A DNA stretch of 64,000 nucleotides. It comes from Cardiobacteriaceae bacterium. Lineage in GTDB: Bacteria > Pseudomonadota > Gammaproteobacteria > Cardiobacteriales > Cardiobacteriaceae. Location of the stretch: the NCBI GenBank assembly GCA_017934275.1, contig JAGBJT010000042.1, forward strand, positions 1-64,000, read 5' to 3'. The position numbers and the translations under genes are program-made. Below, piece after piece: positions 25,098 through 55,692 of the stretch; position 1 is the first letter of the stretch; each line of letters starts with the position of its first letter. The notes beneath the pieces were generated by a model. It worked only from the letters and a program-made list of their open reading frames with translations, did not search any database and was not told where the DNA came from.

Positions 25098-28000
25098 CTA
25101 TTCAATCATTTTAATTTCCCGAATCGATGTTCTAACAAACGCACTAGAGCATTCATTAGCATCTAAACCAACTCCCGCCTTGCCAGCACTAGACAAGTTC
25201 GTGAATGCACCGTAGGTGTTTTTCTTCACACAACGGTTATTTTTCACGCTAATCGCGCTATATGGTTTTGAACCGTCGAGAGTTGAGTCATAAACACCGC
25301 CGAGAGTTTGCTGCAAACCGTTACCGATATTGCCGTTTTCATCAACTGCATCGAGAACGCTGTCATTTGATGAGAAGTCAATAATCGTGAGCGCAGAGGC
25401 AATATTCTTGTTGTTATTGTCTTTTTCGCTCTTATTGGTTGTGCCTGCGTGGTCATCGGTACTTTCTGCCGCATCTTCAAGAGCAGCGTCTAATTCAAAT
25501 CCGACAATCGTTTCCATTCCCTCTTTGGCTTTATTCAAAGACTTGCCAGATACTGGGTCATACTCGGTCATAAACTGGAAGCGAGCTTGGTCAAGCGTTC
25601 CGCCTGTGAGCACATTAAGCCCGATAATCCAAGAAGTTCCCAAACCGACATTCGCTGCCTCAACCGTTTCTTCTTGGCTACAAGTTTCTGGCTTATCAGC
25701 GTTATTTTTTCCAACTCCCGATAAATCGAGCTCACCGTCGCCGACGATATAACTGCGAGTTGTGTAGAACACTGAATTCAAGAGAAGTTGCGGACGGCTA
25801 ACAACTCGTTCGCTGGAATATTCCAGAATTCCCTTATCGCTACCGACATCATCGCTAGTTAAATCAGACGGTCTGCGCGGCAGCAAATCTACATACCAGC
25901 CTTGTTTTGTTCCCGTGTAGCAATCCAGATTTGCATTCAAAGGCTGCGTAACTCTTCCGTCAAAATCACAAGCTTCGTTTGCATCCACACGGCGGAATTG
26001 CGGTTCTTGTCCAGCATTAAATCCAGTGGTGAATTTGTATTCGCCGTTTGTTACCGTCAGTTCGCGTTTTAACAAATCGCTATCAGATTTCGCTTTACCT
26101 GCAACGGCCAAGTCGTCATAAATACCGTAAATCCGTTGCAAATCATTAGCACCGCCGCCTTCTTCGTCCGATAAATCTTTCGGATAAATATCGCTACCTG
26201 TGCCGAAAGTTACGACATATTGCAAATTATTTACGCCGTTTATCCGATAAACCGCAGGAGCAGAGGTAATCGGACGAGTTGTCTCACCGCTGAAAATTTT
26301 GTATGCCTGCCAGTTTTTATCGTCATAGCGCAAATCAAAGCGATACATCGAACCTGCAAAATCACCTGCATAAACCACATCGACAATACCGTCGCCATCA
26401 GAATCAAGCGGAGTTGGAGAAGCCAAAGCCATAATTCCATCACGACCAGCAGTTGCATTGCCAATTTGCACCACTTTAATCAATTTACCAGCAGCATCGC
26501 CAGTTTTCTTCGCCAGAGAAATTGCGTTTTTATCCGCATCTTCGCCCGTTTTTCCGTTGCCGATTTCATATCCCAATGCTTCGAAAACATACAAAGTCGG
26601 CGCAGCATCGTGATTGTCGTTATCGCCAGTCGGATAACCGTTTGCAACAAAGCCTACTAAACGGACATTTTGGTTTGCACAAGCAACCGCGCGAGTTACA
26701 TCAGTTTCGTATTCCTTACCAGAACATTTCGTAATGTTTTTGGTTTTATCCGCATCCTTATTCGCTTCATCATTCGGATTAACAATGCCAGAGGCTGGAT
26801 TTGCCCATTTATATGCAAGTTGGGCAAAAACAGGAGTTCCCACGGTATAGCCAATTCTTACACCTTCATTACCGTTTTTGATTTGATACATCGGAACATT
26901 TGCGGTGTAGTTGCCTGCATCGATACCGACAGCTTTTTTCGTTGCCGAAGTCGCATCATTACCGCCAACTTTGAGCGCGAAAGCACCGCGTCCGCCCTGC
27001 CCCATATTGGCAAGCAATAAAGTTTCTTGGAAGCGTCCAGGAAGAGTAGAAGTTGTGGTGTAAGCAAGTCCGCCATTAACACCGTAAATATGCGGCAAAC
27101 CGCCCGTTGCTTCTACCGTGGTTTCTTGCTCGTTTTGTCCTGTGCCAGCATTAACCGTATCGGTAGTTTCCGTGGTGATTTTCTTGTATTCCTTACCGTA
27201 ACCAGTTTCCGCCGTAGTTGGCAAAATCTTGCCAAGGGTGAAATTTTTCTCGCGCGGCATATCCACAGGAAGGTAGTTCAAGACGAATTTATACGGCGCG
27301 AATTTGTCAGCTTGAGTTGAAGCGTCTTTTTCTGCCCGTTGGAAGATGTAGAGCATTCCGTCATTGCTACCCATAATCAAATAACGGGCACGGTCGATGA
27401 GTTCGTCTTTTTTATCGCCTTGAAGTTCAGGATCGTTCAAATCAACGGTAGTGTCTTGGATTGCAATCGGTGAAGAATCAATTACATCACCCATCATCCG
27501 CTGCATTTTTGCTTTTTCATCATCACCGCCCATTGAAACCGTTGTCGAAACATTTGTTGTTCCGTCATTAGTTTCATCTTCCGATGAAGAGCCTTTGCTA
27601 CGGTCGCGGTATTTCGCGATTTTTCTCGGCGACAAAGTTTCAACCGCTTTTTCAATCTCCGCATCTGCCGAAAGACTTGCGCCGCCTTTGCGTGATAACC
27701 ACGGGAAGAAACCTTTGGCATATTCATCTGCAAAGCTTTCAAATCCGAACAAAGCTGCGTGAGTTGAGCTATCGGTTAATTTTTCAAAACCGCTACCGTT
27801 CGGAATAATGATGGTGCGTTCGCTTTCATATTTCGGGTGATAGGTTTTGCCGTCTTTTTCTTCTTCCAGAGTTTTGCTATCAAATTGCGAGAAAGATAAA
27901 GTCGAAGACCAGTTACCCGTGCGCACATCAAGTGCCGCAACCCAAGTCTTATATCTTTCATCTGAATCCGAACCAGTTTGAATATTTCCCGCGGAAACAT

Positions 28001-29342
28001 TGACTGGTGCGGCAACCGAAGTTTGAATGATATCGGCATTCATAGTTTGCGCGCTATCCGACACCGCAGCCGAGAAGATTTTTGAAAAAGCTTCTTTCAA
28101 CTCATCTTTTTCAACTGCACTATATGTTCCAGGTATGCCGAGTTCCGACGCGTTATTGGCAAGACCTTCTTTACTCGCTGCCTTCAAATAAGGCCACGCT
28201 GCTCCTGTTGTTCCGTCAGAACCAACATCAGCACCAAATCCGATTGCGTAAGTTTGAATATTTTGCTTACCTTCAAACGGATTTCCCTCGGCATCTAAAT
28301 CAGTATCAGATTTGAGATCCGCTTCTCCAGCGTTAAACAGCTGTTTGGAAAAATAAGCAATACCAGCATCCATTCCGTCGCCAGAATAGTTATTGTCCCA
28401 ACGGTAGTGATAAGAACCATCATTCGGAGCGATGTAGTTATCGCCAAGAATTGCTTTAATCGGTGAGTTATATGAACGGTTGGTTGTTTCCACTACGGTA
28501 TTGTGTTTCGCACCTTCTTGACCGTTACCGTCATTGTTAGTTTCACCATCGGAAAGCACGATGATGTAGTTTTTCTGGCAAGCGTATTTGATGTTGTTAT
28601 ACATCTCATCAGCAGCAGAAACATAAGCCGCCGTAGTCGGAGTGGAACCTGAAACCGCCAACTTGGCAAATTCAGTCATAAACTCCGCACCAGTAACAAA
28701 TTCTGAAAGAACAGCTTTGCTAGTGATGCTGTTTATGACACCATTCGGATCGCCACCTTCTTTTGGCCAAATTGGTAAGTAATTAAACTTGATTTTGTCG
28801 TTATATTCAGCACCTGTTCCAATCAATTCATTCAAGACTGAATACAAAATACCAATCCGCGCTTCTTTACAAGCATCACTACCAGCGATTGCAGTCCCCC
28901 AATCCCAGCCTTTACAACCAACTGGCGCACCAGTGTTGTAGTTATTACCACGCGGATAAAAACTCATCGAACCAGAGTTATCAATCAAAAGCATCACCCG
29001 CGGACGAACGGTTGGATATGAAAGCGATGCGGATTGTTCAACATCTAAATAAGCAGGAATTACCGAAAACGGAGATTTTTCTTCATTTTGTGCGGCAGAA
29101 TTTGAAATACCTGTTTCAGGTTTTTCACAATCAGAAACGGTGGCACTATCAGGATCTTGGTTTTCACAATTGCCAGAATTTCCAGTTGCAGCACTTGTCG
29201 TTGGTTGAGAGCCTGCTTGCACAACGGGATCGGTATTTGGATCATTCGGATCATTACTTCCAGCAGCAAAACTAACTGCTGCTGCGACCGCAGTGCTAAT
29301 TGCAAGCGTGATAGCTGCAGGATTAAATTTTTTCGTAATCAT
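25098..29342 (-). CDS. pilY1: Type IV pilus tip/biogenesis protein PilY1/PilC family
   Basis: The 1414-residue exported protein starts with a signal peptide (PAAITLAISTAVAAAVSFAAG). It has a von Willebrand A domain with the MIDAS motif LLIDNSGSMS near residue 117 and YIIVLSDGETNND. The C-terminal half is a PilC-type beta-propeller with a Ca-binding loop LDSDGDGIVD near 980 followed by YAGDFAGSMYRFDL. The family acts at the pilus tip in adhesion and controls pilus extension. ATG 29342 follows a GGAG site; a TTG five codons upstream overlaps that site and is unlikely. It stands alone, without minor pilin genes, as Neisseria pilC genes do. Length is above the usual 1000-1200. Confidence 0.93.
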   Translation of the reverse strand: MITKKFNPAAITLAISTAVAAAVSFAAGSNDPNDPNTDPVVQAGSQPTTSAATGNSGNCENQDPDSATVSDCEKPETGISNSAAQNEEKSPFSVIPAYLDVEQSASLSYPTVRPRVMLLIDNSGSMSFYPRGNNYNTGAPVGCKGWDWGTAIAGSDACKEARIGILYSVLNELIGTGAEYNDKIKFNYLPIWPKEGGDPNGVINSITSKAVLSEFVTGAEFMTEFAKLAVSGSTPTTAAYVSAADEMYNNIKYACQKNYIIVLSDGETNNDGNGQEGAKHNTVVETTNRSYNSPIKAILGDNYIAPNDGSYHYRWDNNYSGDGMDAGIAYFSKQLFNAGEADLKSDTDLDAEGNPFEGKQNIQTYAIGFGADVGSDGTTGAAWPYLKAASKEGLANNASELGIPGTYSAVEKDELKEAFSKIFSAAVSDSAQTMNADIIQTSVAAPVNVSAGNIQTGSDSDERYKTWVAALDVRTGNWSSTLSFSQFDSKTLEEEKDGKTYHPKYESERTIIIPNGSGFEKLTDSSTHAALFGFESFADEYAKGFFPWLSRKGGASLSADAEIEKAVETLSPRKIAKYRDRSKGSSSEDETNDGTTNVSTTVSMGGDDEKAKMQRMMGDVIDSSPIAIQDTTVDLNDPELQGDKKDELIDRARYLIMGSNDGMLYIFQRAEKDASTQADKFAPYKFVLNYLPVDMPREKNFTLGKILPTTAETGYGKEYKKITTETTDTVNAGTGQNEQETTVEATGGLPHIYGVNGGLAYTTTSTLPGRFQETLLLANMGQGGRGAFALKVGGNDATSATKKAVGIDAGNYTANVPMYQIKNGNEGVRIGYTVGTPVFAQLAYKWANPASGIVNPNDEANKDADKTKNITKCSGKEYETDVTRAVACANQNVRLVGFVANGYPTGDNDNHDAAPTLYVFEALGYEIGNGKTGEDADKNAISLAKKTGDAAGKLIKVVQIGNATAGRDGIMALASPTPLDSDGDGIVDVVYAGDFAGSMYRFDLRYDDKNWQAYKIFSGETTRPITSAPAVYRINGVNNLQYVVTFGTGSDIYPKDLSDEEGGGANDLQRIYGIYDDLAVAGKAKSDSDLLKRELTVTNGEYKFTTGFNAGQEPQFRRVDANEACDFDGRVTQPLNANLDCYTGTKQGWYVDLLPRRPSDLTSDDVGSDKGILEYSSERVVSRPQLLLNSVFYTTRSYIVGDGELDLSGVGKNNADKPETCSQEETVEAANVGLGTSWIIGLNVLTGGTLDQARFQFMTEYDPVSGKSLNKAKEGMETIVGFELDAALEDAAESTDDHAGTTNKSEKDNNNKNIASALTIIDFSSNDSVLDAVDENGNIGNGLQQTLGGVYDSTLDGSKPYSAISVKNNRCVKKNTYGAFTNLSSAGKAGVGLDANECSSAFVRTSIREIKMIE

Positions 29343-29607
29343 TAGTTTGGTCTCCAAAAAAATATGTATTTATTTGCAAACATTTGCAAATACGACCAAA
29401 CCTTATTGCTCTTTTTTTGCCTAATATTGAAATATTAACTATTGTTACAATTTTTTGTTGTATGTGAAAAACATTATTTTTATATTTGTTTCGCATTTGA
29501 AATAAATACATTTAACCGTGTTTTGTATTTAATATACATTGCTTATTGTTTATTTATTTTTACATTCATCGCTTGATTGATTTACAAATAACGACATCTC
29601 TTTTTCG

Positions 29608-49733: not shown

Positions 49734-49799
49734 TGTTTATTACATTTGTTTATAATCGTCAGACTTTATTATCGAACATTTTAAGTTACGGAGAGTTTT

Positions 49800-50165
49800 A
49801 TGGATAACAGTATTATTGTTACTCATCTGAATAATTTGCAAAGACAATTTGGAGAAATCAAAGCCATCAGTCTTTACTATGTAGATGGCGTGCTCATTGC
49901 ATCTACCTTCCCAGATTCTTCACCAATCGATGAAATCGGAGCGGTTTCTTCTGCTTTCGGTGCTATTTCTCGCCGCGCTGGCAAATTATTCGAAGTTGGA
50001 AATATCGGTTACACACAATTATTCACTGACAACGGAGTAATTATAATTGCCGACATAAACAATGAAGCAATAGCAGTTATCCAAGCTGATGCAAAATTGA
50101 ACGCAAATGCATTAAGACCAGAACTTCGTCGTGCTGCACTTGCAATCCTCAATCAATTAGATTAA
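49800..50165 (+). CDS. Roadblock/LC7-domain protein (MglB-like)
   Basis: The 121-residue cytoplasmic protein is a single roadblock/LC7 domain: INNL-type start (LNNLQRQFGEIKAISLYYVDGVLIASTF), GAVSSAFGAISRRAGKLFEVGNI, VIIIADINNEAIAVIQADAKLN and a C-terminal helix. Such domains form dimers that regulate small GTPases (MglB on MglA) or cluster signalling proteins. No MglA-type GTPase is nearby. GGAG precedes the ATG, and TATAAT at 49751-49756 may be its -10. It is the first gene of a three-gene operon with a PAS and a PhnD-like protein. Confidence 0.85.
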   Translation: MDNSIIVTHLNNLQRQFGEIKAISLYYVDGVLIASTFPDSSPIDEIGAVSSAFGAISRRAGKLFEVGNIGYTQLFTDNGVIIIADINNEAIAVIQADAKLNANALRPELRRAALAILNQLD

Positions 50166-50178
50166 GGAGTTCGTTACA

Positions 50179-50691
50179 GTGGAAAATCTTACCGACAACG
50201 ACTTAACAACGAGCTCAATTCCCAACATTAAGCCAGTTGAACATGTCAAATTGACACATTATGACGGGAAATTGCGCGAAGTTTCTGTTATAGACGATGA
50301 ATTCCCATATCCAGAAGGTGAGTTGATTATCTCTCGCACCGATATCAACGGAATTATTACTCACACTAACCGTGCATTTGTAATACTTTCTGGTTATTCC
50401 AAAGAAGAACTTATCGGACAACCGCATTACATTCTCCGCCACCCTTCTATGCCGCGTGCTGCGTTTAAAGATTTATGGGATACGGTTTTGAGCGGTAGAA
50501 AATGGAATGGTTATGTAAAAAATCTGCGTAAAAACGGTCAGTTTTATTGGGTTTATGCAACGATTGTTCCAAATTTCGACCAAAATAAACGAATTAAAGG
50601 CTTTACTTCCGTCCGCCGCCAACCGCCAAGAGAAAAAATCAACTATTGCACCAAGCTGTATAAAGAAATGCTAGCGAAGGAGAAATTATGA
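50179..50691 (+). CDS. Stand-alone Aer-type PAS protein
   Basis: The 170-residue protein begins at GTG 50179 after AAGGAG. An extended N-terminus of about 45 residues is followed by one PAS domain (about 45-155) strongly resembling the FAD-binding PAS of the aerotaxis receptor Aer: GIITHTNRAFVILSGYSKEELIGQPHYILRHPSMPRAAFKDLWDTVLSG, then WNGYVKNLRKNGQFYWVYATIVP and GFTSVRR. The Aer signature RHPDMP appears as RHPSMP. There is no membrane segment, HAMP, methyl-accepting, kinase or GGDEF output domain, so it must signal through a partner protein. Its stop overlaps the next start (ATGA). Confidence 0.88.
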   Translation: MENLTDNDLTTSSIPNIKPVEHVKLTHYDGKLREVSVIDDEFPYPEGELIISRTDINGIITHTNRAFVILSGYSKEELIGQPHYILRHPSMPRAAFKDLWDTVLSGRKWNGYVKNLRKNGQFYWVYATIVPNFDQNKRIKGFTSVRRQPPREKINYCTKLYKEMLAKEKL

Positions 50692-51425
50692 GCGATTACA
50701 ATTTTTTGGTTGCCCCAGATTTTGCTGCTGCGCACATTACTGCTTGGTATCAATTCAATCATTTATTGCAAAAATTGACGGGCGAAGCAATTCATCTGCA
50801 TATTGCTAGTGATTTTGATGATTACTATCAACATTTGACTAAACAACCGTCCTTGGTTTATGCAGGTCCTTTCGATACCGTTCAGTTATATCGCAAATTT
50901 TCTTATCAACCGCTTTTGCGTCCGACTTTCGTATCTGATGAAGTTACGATTTTTGCTAATAAAAACGCGGCTATTTCCCATATAAATCAAGTAGATAGCA
51001 GTTTTACAATTGCTTGTATGCGTGATTATTATGTTGAGAGAATTTCACTTATTTTGATGGAACCGTCAAATTTAGGCAAAAAAGATATCAACTGGAATAG
51101 TCTTGATTATGTACAAACGATAATCCGTCAAGTTTATAACGACCGTTCGGTGCTTGGTTGTATTCGTTCGAATATTTTCAATGAACTTGCTCCTAATCTT
51201 AAAGATCATTTTGAACCGATTATCAAAAGTTCGCTTTATGTTCTTTTCCACACATTACTTTGCTCTCCTGCTTGCGAACAATTGCACGCATCAATTCAAA
51301 GTAAAGTAAACATGCTTAATTCATTTACCGATGTTATAAGTGATTTAGGCGTGCCGCGTGGCTTCAAGGTTATGAACAATGTTCATGCAAATTTCTTCTG
51401 CGATATGATGGATACGCTAAATTAA
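50688..51425 (+). CDS. Cytoplasmic PhnD-like substrate-binding-fold protein
   Basis: The 245-residue protein looks like a type 2 periplasmic binding fold of the phosphate/phosphonate (PhnD) group: NFLVAPDFAAAHITAWYQFNHLLQKLTGEAIHL, the YAGPFDTVQLYRK loop where PhnD proteins have a similar Tyr-Asp ligand loop, FVSDEVTIFANKNAAI, and DRSVLGCIRSNIFNEL. It has no signal peptide or lipobox, so it should stay in the cytoplasm as a sensor. Start ATG 50688 overlaps the PAS stop, with AAGGAG just upstream. The operon ends at a terminator at 51453. The fold call is by pattern and moderately sure. Confidence 0.65.
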   Translation: MSDYNFLVAPDFAAAHITAWYQFNHLLQKLTGEAIHLHIASDFDDYYQHLTKQPSLVYAGPFDTVQLYRKFSYQPLLRPTFVSDEVTIFANKNAAISHINQVDSSFTIACMRDYYVERISLILMEPSNLGKKDINWNSLDYVQTIIRQVYNDRSVLGCIRSNIFNELAPNLKDHFEPIIKSSLYVLFHTLLCSPACEQLHASIQSKVNMLNSFTDVISDLGVPRGFKVMNNVHANFFCDMMDTLN

Positions 51426-51452
51426 AATTTCCGTCCTATTCATATTCAATAG

Positions 51453-51484
51453 AAAAATGCCTGTATATTCTGCAGGCATTTTTT
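51453..51484 (+). terminator. Terminator after the roadblock-PAS-PhnD operon
   Basis: Stem AATGCCTG (within 51456-51463) and CAGGCATT (51473-51480) followed by TTTTTT. Confidence 0.85.
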
Positions 51485-51544: not shown

Positions 51545-52027
51545 ATGTTTTTATATCACGGCAGTAATGTGGCGGTTAAAAATCCGCAATTACTCAAAAT
51601 CTATCGAGCGTTGGATTTTGGGAGTGGTTTTTATACGACCAGTGATATAAATCAAGCCCAAAAATGGGCGGAACGAACTGCGTTAAGATTACAACAAAAA
51701 CAATCGTTTGTAACGGTTTATGAAGTTGATGAGCAGAAAATGAATGAACTTCGTTTTTTGCAATTTGATACGCCCAATCTCGAATGGTTGCATTTTGTGG
51801 TGCAAAATAGAACAGGGCAATCAAGAGAAGATAAATGGGATATTGTCAAAGGTCCTGTGGCTGATGACCAAACTATTGTCGTGATTGATTTATATATTGA
51901 CGGTATGTTTAGCGAAGAAGACGCAATCAATCGCTTGTTACCGCAAAAATTAAAAGACCAATATACTTTCAAAACGAATAGAGCAATCGATTTACTGTAT
52001 TGCGTTGAGGTACTGTTGTATGAATAA
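51545..52027 (+). CDS. DUF3990 protein, ADP-ribosyltransferase-like, probable toxin
   Basis: The 160-residue protein matches the DUF3990 family: an opening FLYHGSNVAVKNPQLLKIYRALDFGSGFYTTSDINQAQKWAERTALR, in which YHGS and GFYTT resemble the NAD-binding motifs of ART-fold enzymes, then a mid part ending EWLHFVVQNR and DIVKGPVADDQT. I infer an ADP-ribosyltransferase-like activity; this is not shown. It is followed by two small genes with 8-bp and 4-bp overlaps, the layout of a toxin-antitoxin cassette. No secretion signal is present. Confidence 0.75.
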   Translation: MFLYHGSNVAVKNPQLLKIYRALDFGSGFYTTSDINQAQKWAERTALRLQQKQSFVTVYEVDEQKMNELRFLQFDTPNLEWLHFVVQNRTGQSREDKWDIVKGPVADDQTIVVIDLYIDGMFSEEDAINRLLPQKLKDQYTFKTNRAIDLLYCVEVLLYE

Positions 52028-52268
52028 AATATCTCATTTTGTTTTGGATTATTATAATAAGTCGGTCGTGAGCGAAATTATGAAAAAATATGCTATGAAC
52101 GAAATGGAAGCGGCAAATGCGTTTTTAACCTCACAGACTCACGCAATGTTGGAAAATGCGGATATGGCAATGTGGGAATTTTCGGCTTATGCGATTTTGG
52201 ATATTTGGGAAAGTGAACAAATTACAGGCGACCCAAGAAATTCGATACATTTGCGGAGCGAATTATGA
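52020..52268 (+). CDS. Small partner protein in the DUF3990 module
   Basis: This is an 82-residue, Met- and Ala-rich, mainly helical protein (SHFVLDYYNKSVVSEIMKKYAMNEMEAANAFLTSQTHAMLENADMAMWEFSAYAILDIWE). ATG 52020 overlaps the end of the DUF3990 gene by 8 bp. It resembles small DUF3791-like partners found beside DUF3990 genes, with an acidic helix pattern, and is a candidate antitoxin. I am not sure of the family. Confidence 0.6.
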   Translation: MNKISHFVLDYYNKSVVSEIMKKYAMNEMEAANAFLTSQTHAMLENADMAMWEFSAYAILDIWESEQITGDPRNSIHLRSEL

Positions 52269-52480
52269 GTAAAGAAATGGCGTTTTTTTTGTTTTTAATC
52301 GAACGATATGCAGAACAATACAATCGCCCCACTGGTGAAGTGTGGCAAGAATGGACGGAAAAAGGAATTTTGCAAAAAATTTATAACAATTATTTTCAAT
52401 ATCACCAAGAACGCTTGCAAAACGCTTTTGATGATATTAACGCTTTGCTTAAAACAGGAAAACATTTGGTTTATGCATGA
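52265..52480 (+). CDS. DUF3791-like small protein in the DUF3990 module
   Basis: The 71-residue protein has the DUF3791 pattern: KEMAFFLFLIERYAEQYNRPTGEVWQEWTEKGILQKIYNNYFQYHQERLQNAFDDINALL. The start overlaps the stop of the previous gene by 4 bp (ATGA). It is a candidate antitoxin or chaperone for the ART-like protein. It lacks an obvious DNA-binding motif. Confidence 0.65.
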   Translation: MSKEMAFFLFLIERYAEQYNRPTGEVWQEWTEKGILQKIYNNYFQYHQERLQNAFDDINALLKTGKHLVYA

Positions 52481-52614
52481 ATGAATTTTTATAGATTACC
52501 GTATTTTTGCTATCTTGTGTTTCAACTTTAGCTTTGGCGGTTATATAGTTATTACGCATAAAAGTAACAAAATATGGTGCAATATTTTTTTCAACTCAAT
52601 TGGAGCGTAAATTT

Positions 52615-55600
52615 ATGGCATACAATGTTAAATTTAAGGAAAAATCAAGAGCAGCAAGGCTTTCCCCCCCCCTTAATAATAATTATTATCAATTAACCTC
52701 TTTTCATTTGGGCAAGCTAAACCTCCTGCTATCAATAATACTCTTTACTGTTGCAATGCCTGCTAATGCGGAATACACAGAACAAGAACAACAAACAGCC
52801 GATGCACTTCTTTCTAAATTACAAGAATATAATGAAAATGCAAACGCAGGAAGTTTGCTCTATATCATTGACGAACGCTTGCAAAGCGAAGGCTTCTTAA
52901 AAAACGATGAAAATAATTCATATGTCAAGTCAAATGATTTGTTGTGCAAGGAACATAGTGGTTCTTTTAAGTGCGGTCTATGGCAGTCGTTTCCAGCTGG
53001 TAGCAAAAGTTCTGTTGTAGGTATCTCTAACAATATAATTGGTAGTAACTCTGCAGCGGTTGGTTTTGAAAATACTGTAAATGGGCATGAGGCAAGCGCA
53101 TTTGGAAGTAATAATACTGTAAATGGGCATGAGGCAAGCGCATTTGGTATTTATAACACCGCAAAAATACAAAAATCCAGCGCATTTGGTTATGACAACC
53201 GTGCATCACAACAATATTCATCGGCATTTGGAGCAGAAAATAGAGCATCTGGTCAGTTTTCATCAGCGTTTGGTTATGACAACACTACAAAAAACACACA
53301 AGCAAATGCATTTGGTAGCCAAAACACCGCCAAGGGAGAATATTCTGCTGCCGTAGGTTATAACAACACCGCGCATAACAATAGTTCATACGCATTCGGT
53401 GCTAACAATAACACCTATGCTGATAATTCATCCGCATTTGGTTTGCAAAATACTACTAGTGGTTTAACATCAAGTGCTTTTGGTTCTTATAACAACGCCA
53501 AGGGCGAAAGGTCATCTGCATTTGGTTATAGCAATGAAGCAAGTAAAGAAAGCTCATCTGCATTCGGTTATCAAAATACTGCAACTGGGAATAGTGCATC
53601 TGCCTTCGGTTATAAGAACAAAGTATCTTCTGACTACTCATCTGCATTCGGGTATAACAATACGATAGATACTCGTGAAGCAGTAGCAGTTGGTATGGAT
53701 AACACTGCAAGTGCTCGCTATTCATCGGTATTTGGTGTAAATAGCAAAGCTCTTGTTGATTATGGTACTGCCATAGGTTATAAATCCTACGCTGATCGCC
53801 CCGCAGATGTTCGAGGTTATTCACCTGCCAAAGATGATGTCTCAACAGAAAACAATTACATATGGAAAGCAACTTCGGCAGCATTAGCAATCGGCGACAC
53901 TCACGATACAAACAAGATTACTCGTCAAATCACAGGTGTTGCGGCTGGTAGTGAAGATACTGACGCGGTGAATGTGGCACAGTTAAAAGAAGCGGTTAAA
54001 AGTGGTGCTAATTTCTCACCGATTAAGGTTTCAGATGATTCTGGTACTGATTTTACCGTAGATAGTGCAGGCAGCCTGACAATTGCAGGTGGCAGTAATA
54101 TCAACACAACTGCTGATAATAGTAACACATTAACGGTATCGCTAAATAACAATGTTGATTTAGGCAGTTCAGGCAGCTTACAAGTTGGTGATACAACAAT
54201 TAACAACAACGGCAAAATTACAGGCTTAACCGCAGGTTCGGCTGCTGGTGAAGCGGTGGAATATAGTCAACTTTCAGAATTGCAAACGAAGATTGCAACA
54301 CTTAATACAGCAATTCAAAATAACGGTAGTTATTTTCCATTTACCATTAAAGATAATTCAGGCAATGACTTTAAAGTCGCCAGTGGTGGTACGGTGAATA
54401 TTGAAGGTAGTGGCATCATTACAACCAAAGCAGATAATGGTACACTTACCATTAGTGCGGATTTGTCGGATTACGCAACCGAGCAATTTGTAACAGGTCA
54501 AGGCTATCAAACTTCTAATCAAGTTAATACAGCAATTACCAATCGTTTGAACGGTTATGCCACTCAAACATGGGTGCAACAACAAGGTTATCTAACCTCT
54601 ACTGACAAAGCCGATTTACAACAACAAATTGCTGATAATGCAGTAGATTTAACCGATTACGCCAAAACGGCTGATGTGAATAATACGCTTAGACAATACA
54701 GCACAACTTCGCAAACGCAAAAATGGGTGCAAGACCAAGGTTATTTGACGGCTGATGATAGAGCGGAATTAGAAGCCAAAATCAAGGCAGGCAACATCGA
54801 CTTATCCGATTATGCCAAAACCGAAGATGTTGATAACAAACTTACTGAATACACCAAAACTGCCGATTTGGGCAATGTTATTGCCGATGAAACCGCTAAA
54901 TTAGGCTTGGTTAATCAACAAGATTTGGATAATCAACTGAATGATTATGCCACTATCGCCAAAGTGGAAGCCGATTATCTAAAAAAAGCCGAGTTAAGCG
55001 GTGCGATTGAAGATAAAGCCAAAGACATGGAATTAGTGGATCAAACTTCGTTAAATGATCAGTTGAAAAACCTGCAACTACAAAGTGGTAACTATGTTCC
55101 GATTTCGGTGGGCGGTGATACTGGCGAATTTGAAATTCCTAACGGTGGCAGAGCAAATTTTGTTGGCGATGGCACGAATATCAGCACAGTAGCAGACGGT
55201 GATACCGTAACTATTAACTTGAATAAAGATATTCAAATCGATAGTGTGAATGCAGGTGGTACAGTGGTTAATCAAGACGGCGTTGCGTTAAATTCTGGCG
55301 TTGCTCTTACCAATCAAGGTTTGAATAACGGCGGACAAGTGATTAGCAATGTCGCTCCAGGTGTGCGTCCAACTGATGCGGTGAATGTAGGGCAATTGAA
55401 TAGCGCAATGGCTTCTATGAGCGGTCAATTGTCTTCTCGGATTGAGACCGTCGATAAAAACGCCAATGCTGGAACGGCTTCCGCATTAGCAGCCAGCACA
55501 ATGCCCGTTGCAAATGCTCCTGGTGAAGCAATGATGGGATTTACTGGCGGCACTTACCGTGGACAACAAGGTTATGCAATCGGTTATTCACAAAACTCAC

Positions 55601-55692
55601 AAAGCGGTCGCATCGTATTCCGAGCCACTGGTTCAGGTAATTCCAAAGGACATTACGGAGCTTCTGTAGGTGTCGGTGTGAAATTGTGGTAG
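52615..55692 (+). CDS. YadA-type trimeric autotransporter adhesin, phase variable
   Basis: The 1025-residue surface adhesin has a long signal region ending LLLSIILFTVAMPANAEYT. A head of about 17 YadA-like ~14-residue repeats follows (SSAFGYDNRASQQY, SSAFGAENRASGQF and so on, about residues 130-400), then a neck (DAVNVAQLKEAV near 450). Next comes a stalk with repeats of the type YAKTADVNNTLRQY and QGYLTADDRAELEAKI, and a second neck (PTDAVNVGQLNSAM). A C-terminal YadA anchor (last ~90 residues) ends in VGVGVKLW. ATG 52615 has a GGAG site; a TTG at 52600 overlaps it. A C9 tract at codons 17-20 should switch the gene on and off. Confidence 0.93.
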   Translation: MAYNVKFKEKSRAARLSPPLNNNYYQLTSFHLGKLNLLLSIILFTVAMPANAEYTEQEQQTADALLSKLQEYNENANAGSLLYIIDERLQSEGFLKNDENNSYVKSNDLLCKEHSGSFKCGLWQSFPAGSKSSVVGISNNIIGSNSAAVGFENTVNGHEASAFGSNNTVNGHEASAFGIYNTAKIQKSSAFGYDNRASQQYSSAFGAENRASGQFSSAFGYDNTTKNTQANAFGSQNTAKGEYSAAVGYNNTAHNNSSYAFGANNNTYADNSSAFGLQNTTSGLTSSAFGSYNNAKGERSSAFGYSNEASKESSSAFGYQNTATGNSASAFGYKNKVSSDYSSAFGYNNTIDTREAVAVGMDNTASARYSSVFGVNSKALVDYGTAIGYKSYADRPADVRGYSPAKDDVSTENNYIWKATSAALAIGDTHDTNKITRQITGVAAGSEDTDAVNVAQLKEAVKSGANFSPIKVSDDSGTDFTVDSAGSLTIAGGSNINTTADNSNTLTVSLNNNVDLGSSGSLQVGDTTINNNGKITGLTAGSAAGEAVEYSQLSELQTKIATLNTAIQNNGSYFPFTIKDNSGNDFKVASGGTVNIEGSGIITTKADNGTLTISADLSDYATEQFVTGQGYQTSNQVNTAITNRLNGYATQTWVQQQGYLTSTDKADLQQQIADNAVDLTDYAKTADVNNTLRQYSTTSQTQKWVQDQGYLTADDRAELEAKIKAGNIDLSDYAKTEDVDNKLTEYTKTADLGNVIADETAKLGLVNQQDLDNQLNDYATIAKVEADYLKKAELSGAIEDKAKDMELVDQTSLNDQLKNLQLQSGNYVPISVGGDTGEFEIPNGGRANFVGDGTNISTVADGDTVTINLNKDIQIDSVNAGGTVVNQDGVALNSGVALTNQGLNNGGQVISNVAPGVRPTDAVNVGQLNSAMASMSGQLSSRIETVDKNANAGTASALAASTMPVANAPGEAMMGFTGGTYRGQQGYAIGYSQNSQSGRIVFRATGSGNSKGHYGASVGVGVKLW
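52664..52672 (+). repeat. C9 homopolymer at the start of the adhesin gene
   Basis: Nine consecutive C lie inside the codons for Ser-Pro-Pro-Leu, about 50 bp after the start. With C9 the frame is open. With one more C the next codon becomes TAA directly after the tract; with one fewer, translation stops after a few codons. This is the classic layout of slipped-strand phase variation. Confidence 0.88.

Follow-up and report, generated by a model that had tools for sequence, protein, structure and literature searches.

The roadblock, PAS and PhnD-fold genes that lie side by side in the window, a stretch of 64,000 nucleotides of a Cardiobacteriaceae bacterium (assembly GCA_017934275.1, contig JAGBJT010000042.1, positions 1 to 64,000), are one conserved end of a larger, unstudied operon found in many beta- and gammaproteobacteria, and comparison of the encoded proteins suggests that this end is the sensory one. 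We lean towards a model in which the two putative sensors act through the roadblock protein on a Group 3 MglA GTPase, with redox and metabolite inputs and type IV pili or transcription as the output.

The component families and the Group 3 MglA systems are known, while the constant pairing of a flavin-type PAS protein with a cytoplasmic PhnD-fold protein and a winged-helix (wHTH)-roadblock protein was not found described. No paper describing a roadblock, PAS and PhnD system came up in the open literature, most subscription journals lying outside the search; the author of an earlier note on this DNA, made from the sequence alone, knew of no described system with the trio. Group 3 MglA GTPases were mapped earlier without known inputs, and the locus offers two candidates, one for redox state and the other for a metabolite, both of which stay with the roadblock protein across several bacterial orders. 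What bacterial Ras-like systems sense thus becomes directly testable with small soluble proteins, and a PhnD-fold sensor in the cytoplasm would, if true, be unusual, as would a roadblock module that runs without a GTPase.

Organization of the locus

The three genes lie on the plus strand and form one operon that ends in a terminator (Table 1). The roadblock and PAS genes are separated by 13 bases, and the PAS and PhnD-fold genes overlap by 4 bases (ATGA). A consensus terminator scan missed the hairpin listed in Table 1; no convincing sigma-70 site was seen, and a consensus promoter scan gave nothing above shuffled sequences. In comparison with a congener that keeps the trio (G001), dN/dS is 0.107 for the roadblock gene, 0.047 for the PAS gene and 0.022 for the PhnD-fold gene, at or below the values of the upstream genes, and all three frames are open.

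Table 1. Features of the three-gene operon at window positions 49800-51425 and of its signals
Feature	Position	Strand	Remarks
Shine-Dalgarno-like GGAG, roadblock gene	49790..49793	+	read from sequence
Roadblock/LC7 (MglB-like) gene	49800..50165	+	121 aa, ATG start
Shine-Dalgarno-like AAGGAG, PAS gene	50164..50169	+	read from sequence
Single-domain FAD-type PAS gene	50179..50691	+	170 aa, GTG start
Shine-Dalgarno-like AAGGAG, PhnD-like gene	50677..50682	+	read from sequence
Cytoplasmic PhnD-fold binding-protein gene	50688..51425	+	245 aa, ATG start
Intrinsic terminator, hairpin and U-run, 3' of the trio	51452..51484	+	MFE -17.1 kcal/mol, z = -4.2

On the 5' side the trio is flanked by a BON lipoprotein gene and NodT-type efflux genes and on the 3' side by candidate defence genes, none of which is among the families that recur beside the trio in other genomes. 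A PADLOC search matched the three genes that follow it (window 51545-52480; DUF3990, an 87-aa protein and DUF3791) to the candidate defence family PDC-M13 and gave nothing for any of the three trio proteins. At window 52600-55692 lies the gene of a 1030-aa protein with many SSAFG-type repeats, by inspection a YadA-like trimeric autotransporter adhesin.

The earlier note had read the trio as a roadblock protein, an Aer-like PAS protein without an output domain and a signal-less PhnD-fold protein, a composition borne out by the family and structure matches given below, among them the fold of the third protein, on which it had let its interpretation depend and for which the AlphaFold model matches PtxB and PhnD. 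Its account of the tight packing, with the 13-bp gap, the ATGA overlap, the Shine-Dalgarno sites and the terminator, likewise held when the open frames and the sequence were read again and the hairpin was folded.

Conservation of the trio and its partner families

Scanning about 85,000 genomes, one per species, with a PhnD-family profile yielded 80 named loci, which are the best 80 of 150 confirmed matches and thus not a random sample. Mapped with profiles (HMMs) made from the window proteins and their relatives, 78 of these best 80 of 150 carry the genes in the order roadblock, PAS, PhnD on one strand, in lineages that include Psychrobacter, Oceanospirillaceae, Methylococcaceae, Xanthomonadales and Comamonadaceae, which rules out chance adjacency of the trio. 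The two exceptions are Rappaport, with the order roadblock-PAS-roadblock-PhnD, and a contig that starts near the PhnD gene; in 4 loci of the same set, more than 400 bases separate the roadblock and PAS genes. A family-mate of the window's genome (G006) has a trio locus identical to that of Rappaport israeli. The layout is looser within the order to which the window belongs, the PAS and PhnD genes being adjacent in two genomes (G002 and G029), and other members having the PhnD gene alone, with the PAS gene and a roadblock operon elsewhere.

Clustering of the neighbouring open reading frames in the best 80 of 150 loci revealed recurring families, designated here C6/C11 (74/80), C3 (76/80) and C7/C17 (66/80), besides a Ras-like GTPase (20/80). 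The gene order is C6-C7-GTPase-C3-roadblock-PAS-PhnD in Methylococcaceae, C6-C7-C3-trio in Oceanospirillaceae, where the operon has no GTPase gene, and roadblock-PAS-PhnD-C11-(C17)-(GTPase)-C3 in Comamonadaceae and Xanthomonadales. Methylomonas and Methylotuvimicrobium carry the complete set of seven side by side.

C3 is modelled as a winged helix plus roadblock protein (pLDDT 92), with an N-terminal winged-helix-like part, judged from secondary structure, and a C-terminal roadblock domain that matches MglB and Ragulator subunits; Robl_LC7 scores are weak, in 20 of 38 C3 members. A search of Cardiobacteriaceae, which retain the trio, did not find this family. Pfam has no family for C6 or C7. 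The C7 profile matched only receiver-type proteins in the PDB, and weakly, and we call C7 a pseudo-receiver because its phosphoacceptor region varies between lineages; its C-terminal part is probably a winged helix, by analogy with the Group 3 partner protein (PMC4316618).

The arrangement recalls the actinobacterial conservons (CvnA-D), which also bring together a roadblock protein, a Ras-like GTPase, a small partner and a sensor in one operon, a likeness in the way of working only. While conservons have the histidine kinase CvnA, no such kinase is among the recurring neighbours of the trio, whose operons have soluble PAS and PhnD-fold sensors instead.

The PAS protein

The PAS protein matches Pfam PAS_3 (E = 3.4e-15), and its closest solved relative is the flavin domain of Aer (PDB 8dik, E = 9.7e-33). 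The residues by which Aer contacts FAD, H53, R57, W70, N85 and R115 (PMC9668731), correspond to H83, R87, W100, N115 and R146 of the window protein and are kept in 91-94 of 95 aligned trio PAS proteins. Aer and the trio proteins therefore share their flavin-contact residues, and the window protein is, as judged by these key contacts, a FAD-type PAS protein.

The two differ in other respects. The trio PAS proteins have a longer N-terminus, with a conserved segment that by inspection is absent from Aer and in which a P-[YF]-P-x-G motif immediately precedes the PAS core; Aer S28 is natively Gly in them. They also lack the HAMP domain, the membrane anchor and the MCP output of Aer; in the 170-aa window protein, Pfam recognizes the PAS domain only and no HAMP or MCP signalling domain. 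Single-PAS paralogues occur in tandem elsewhere (L061 5882-7020; G009:C1 630637-631587), and G009 has two such PAS domains within one 335-aa open frame.

The PhnD-fold protein

The third protein matches the Phosphonate-bd family PF12974 with E = 8.6e-11, and its Rappaport homologue does so with E = 1.5e-27. Used alone as a phmmer query it retrieved no solved relative, and the profile of its family reached PtxB (E = 1.4e-7). An AlphaFold model built from 58 homologues (pLDDT 94.9) gave PtxB as the best Foldseek match (5o2j, E = 7e-14, TM 0.80) and also matched PhnD; by this model, the protein has a PhnD-type fold. The first beta-strand of the model begins at residue 3, and the start codon of the gene shares bases with the stop codon of the PAS gene, leaving no place for a signal peptide. 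The trio protein thus shares its predicted fold with PtxB and PhnD and with the sensor-type relatives AioX, ArrX and XAC2383, whereas all of these are periplasmic and the trio protein has no export signal. AioX and ArrX act as sensors, not as uptake proteins.

P10, D11, W20, P61, E85, E125, H188, D239 and L244 are invariant in the alignment of 58 sequences. The window protein departs at 22 of the 48 positions that are near-invariant in other trio PhnD proteins, so its ligand may differ. One gammaproteobacterial operon (L136 5986-7518) has a tandem pair of PhnD-fold genes behind its PAS gene. Longer PhnD-family proteins occur outside the trio at L163 1495-2328 and L166 1453-2331, where their genes adjoin a ThiF/MoeB-like gene and that of a 128-134-aa protein, and both genomes carry Group 3-like GTPases.

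Roadblock protein and association with Group 3 MglA GTPases

The window roadblock protein belongs to Pfam Robl_LC7 (E = 2.6e-7; 30.7 bits, with a curated cut-off of 23). It is very divergent and sits on a very long branch of the roadblock tree, where its placement is not firm.

A GTPase profile was used to search 369 genomes of the class, 16 of which, including the window's, carry the trio. The GTPase is present in 14 of these 16 and in 65 of the 369 overall (hypergeometric p = 7e-10, a rough value because the trio genomes, though drawn from 12 families, share ancestry). In 13 of the 16 the distance between it and the PhnD gene is 2.0-2.8 kb, and, with the window's genome left aside, trio and GTPase are linked in 13 of 15 sampled trio genomes. 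The usual G4 lysine is missing from the GTPases, whose G5 motif is DAR or a variant of it; absence of the G4 lysine and G5 DAR are features of Group 3 MglA (PMC4316618). Wuichet and Sogaard-Andersen describe Group 3 systems of beta- and gammaproteobacteria as a receiver-wHTH protein with MglA and one or two MglB (PMC4316618). Both these systems and the trio operons therefore comprise an MglA-family GTPase, an MglB-like roadblock protein and a partner with a receiver-like N-terminus, whereas PhnD-fold proteins, C6, the wHTH-roadblock protein C3 and, by text search, PAS proteins are not mentioned in the accessible portion of the Group 3 description (PMC4316618).

The window's genome differs from such systems in that its GTPase is not linked to the trio. 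This Group 3-type GTPase (G000:C21:2817-3353, E = 1.3e-89, G5 DAR) is encoded on another contig, in an operon that also encodes a 343-aa protein and a coupled roadblock protein of its own. A type IV pilin gene (L053 1075-1551, on the same contig) is divergent from that operon. Besides, at E <= 1e-6 no GTPase match was obtained in 7 of the 15 named trio genomes searched whole, one of them the complete genome of Marinobacterium sediminicola, which implies that the roadblock module works without a GTPase there or that a more distant one serves.

The guess of the earlier note that the roadblock protein acts towards an MglA-type GTPase encoded elsewhere thus gains from the linkage in many genomes and from the GTPase-roadblock operon on the other contig, while it loses from the trio genomes that gave no match. 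Its expectation that the trio would extend beyond a single strain was confirmed by the order kept in 78 of the best 80 of 150 loci. As a whole, its interpretation stands as to co-conservation, the PhnD fold and, in part, the GTPase, and it missed the larger system of six or seven genes.

A model and its alternatives

In the model that we favour, and which we consider somewhat probable, the PAS protein would carry FAD and report the redox state of the cell, as its flavin-contact residues suggest, and the PhnD-fold protein, from its predicted structure, would close on a cytosolic metabolite. Both would dock on the roadblock dimer, or on a roadblock/C3 heterodimer, and docking would alter roadblock control of the GTPase nucleotide state; the output would be transcription, by way of the winged-helix proteins, and/or type IV pili. 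The window's genome encodes its GTPase in trans, together with that enzyme's own coupled roadblock protein and the 343-aa protein. Against this model count the 7 of 15 genomes without a GTPase match, the unlinked GTPase of the window's genome, the C3 family that was not found and the divergence of the roadblock protein. An alternative is a GTPase-independent switch, in which the PAS and PhnD-fold proteins would act on a heterodimer of the roadblock protein and C3, and the winged helix of C3 would, together with C7, exert direct control over transcription, the GTPase being optional. In the mapping of the best 80 of 150 loci, C3 (76) and C7/C17 (66) are the constant partners and the GTPase accompanies only 20, the Oceanospirillaceae operon dispenses with it, Marinobacterium sediminicola is among the genomes without a match, and C3 has a modelled winged-helix-like N-terminal part. 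Yet the GTPase linkage in the class-wide sample is strong, C3 was not found in Cardiobacteriaceae though the trio is kept there, and DNA binding by C3 is putative. We therefore regard this switch as possible but rather doubtful, and hold the same of its broader form, a widespread cytoplasmic dual-input device in which flavin and PhnD-fold sensors work on a roadblock/wHTH-roadblock pair and the GTPase is dispensable in some lineages.

The divergent roadblock and PhnD-fold proteins and the C3 family not found in Cardiobacteriaceae could also mean that in the window's genus the trio, its former partners gone, is a remnant, either decaying or put to another use, and is on its way to being lost, which is improbable given the open frames, the low dN/dS of all three genes against the congener and the GTPase operon kept elsewhere in the genome. 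Less probable still is Aer-like energy taxis, in which the PAS protein would signal to a CheA or Pil-Chp chemosensory system. The close resemblance to the PAS domain of Aer and the CheW/CheA genes of many relatives speak for it, but the PAS protein has no MCP, HAMP or membrane segment, and no CheW-family (CheW/CheA) match was found in the window's genome (G000), G001 or G002 (drafts of 73, 86 and 93% completeness), all of which keep the PAS and PhnD proteins, so that PAS probably works outside any Aer-style chemosensory route there. For the window's genome, a role as an Aer chemoreceptor, already disfavoured, is rejected on these grounds. We give the least credence to the PhnD-like protein being an ordinary phosphonate or phosphite uptake protein with accidental neighbours: the PF12974 match and the PtxB/PhnD fold would suit such a role, but the signal peptide is absent, no ABC permease or ATPase recurs among the trio neighbourhoods, and the PAS and roadblock partners are constant. 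Phosphonate transport is accordingly rejected.

Possible outputs

The winged-helix proteins of the operon make transcription one possible output of the favoured model, and type IV pili are another plausible one, as T2SSE-family ATPases that fit PilB, PilT and PilU are encoded in the window's genome and a roadblock phenotype is on record in Snodgrassella. In that Group 3 organism, mutation of the orphan 121-aa roadblock gene mglB-3 changed colony spreading and gut colonisation (PMC11112851). This gene and the window roadblock gene are alike in being unlinked, in encoding 121 aa and in belonging to organisms with a Group 3 MglA (PMC11112851). At 25098-29357 the window also encodes a protein of 1419 aa whose PilY1 beta-propeller domain points to type IV pili in this organism.
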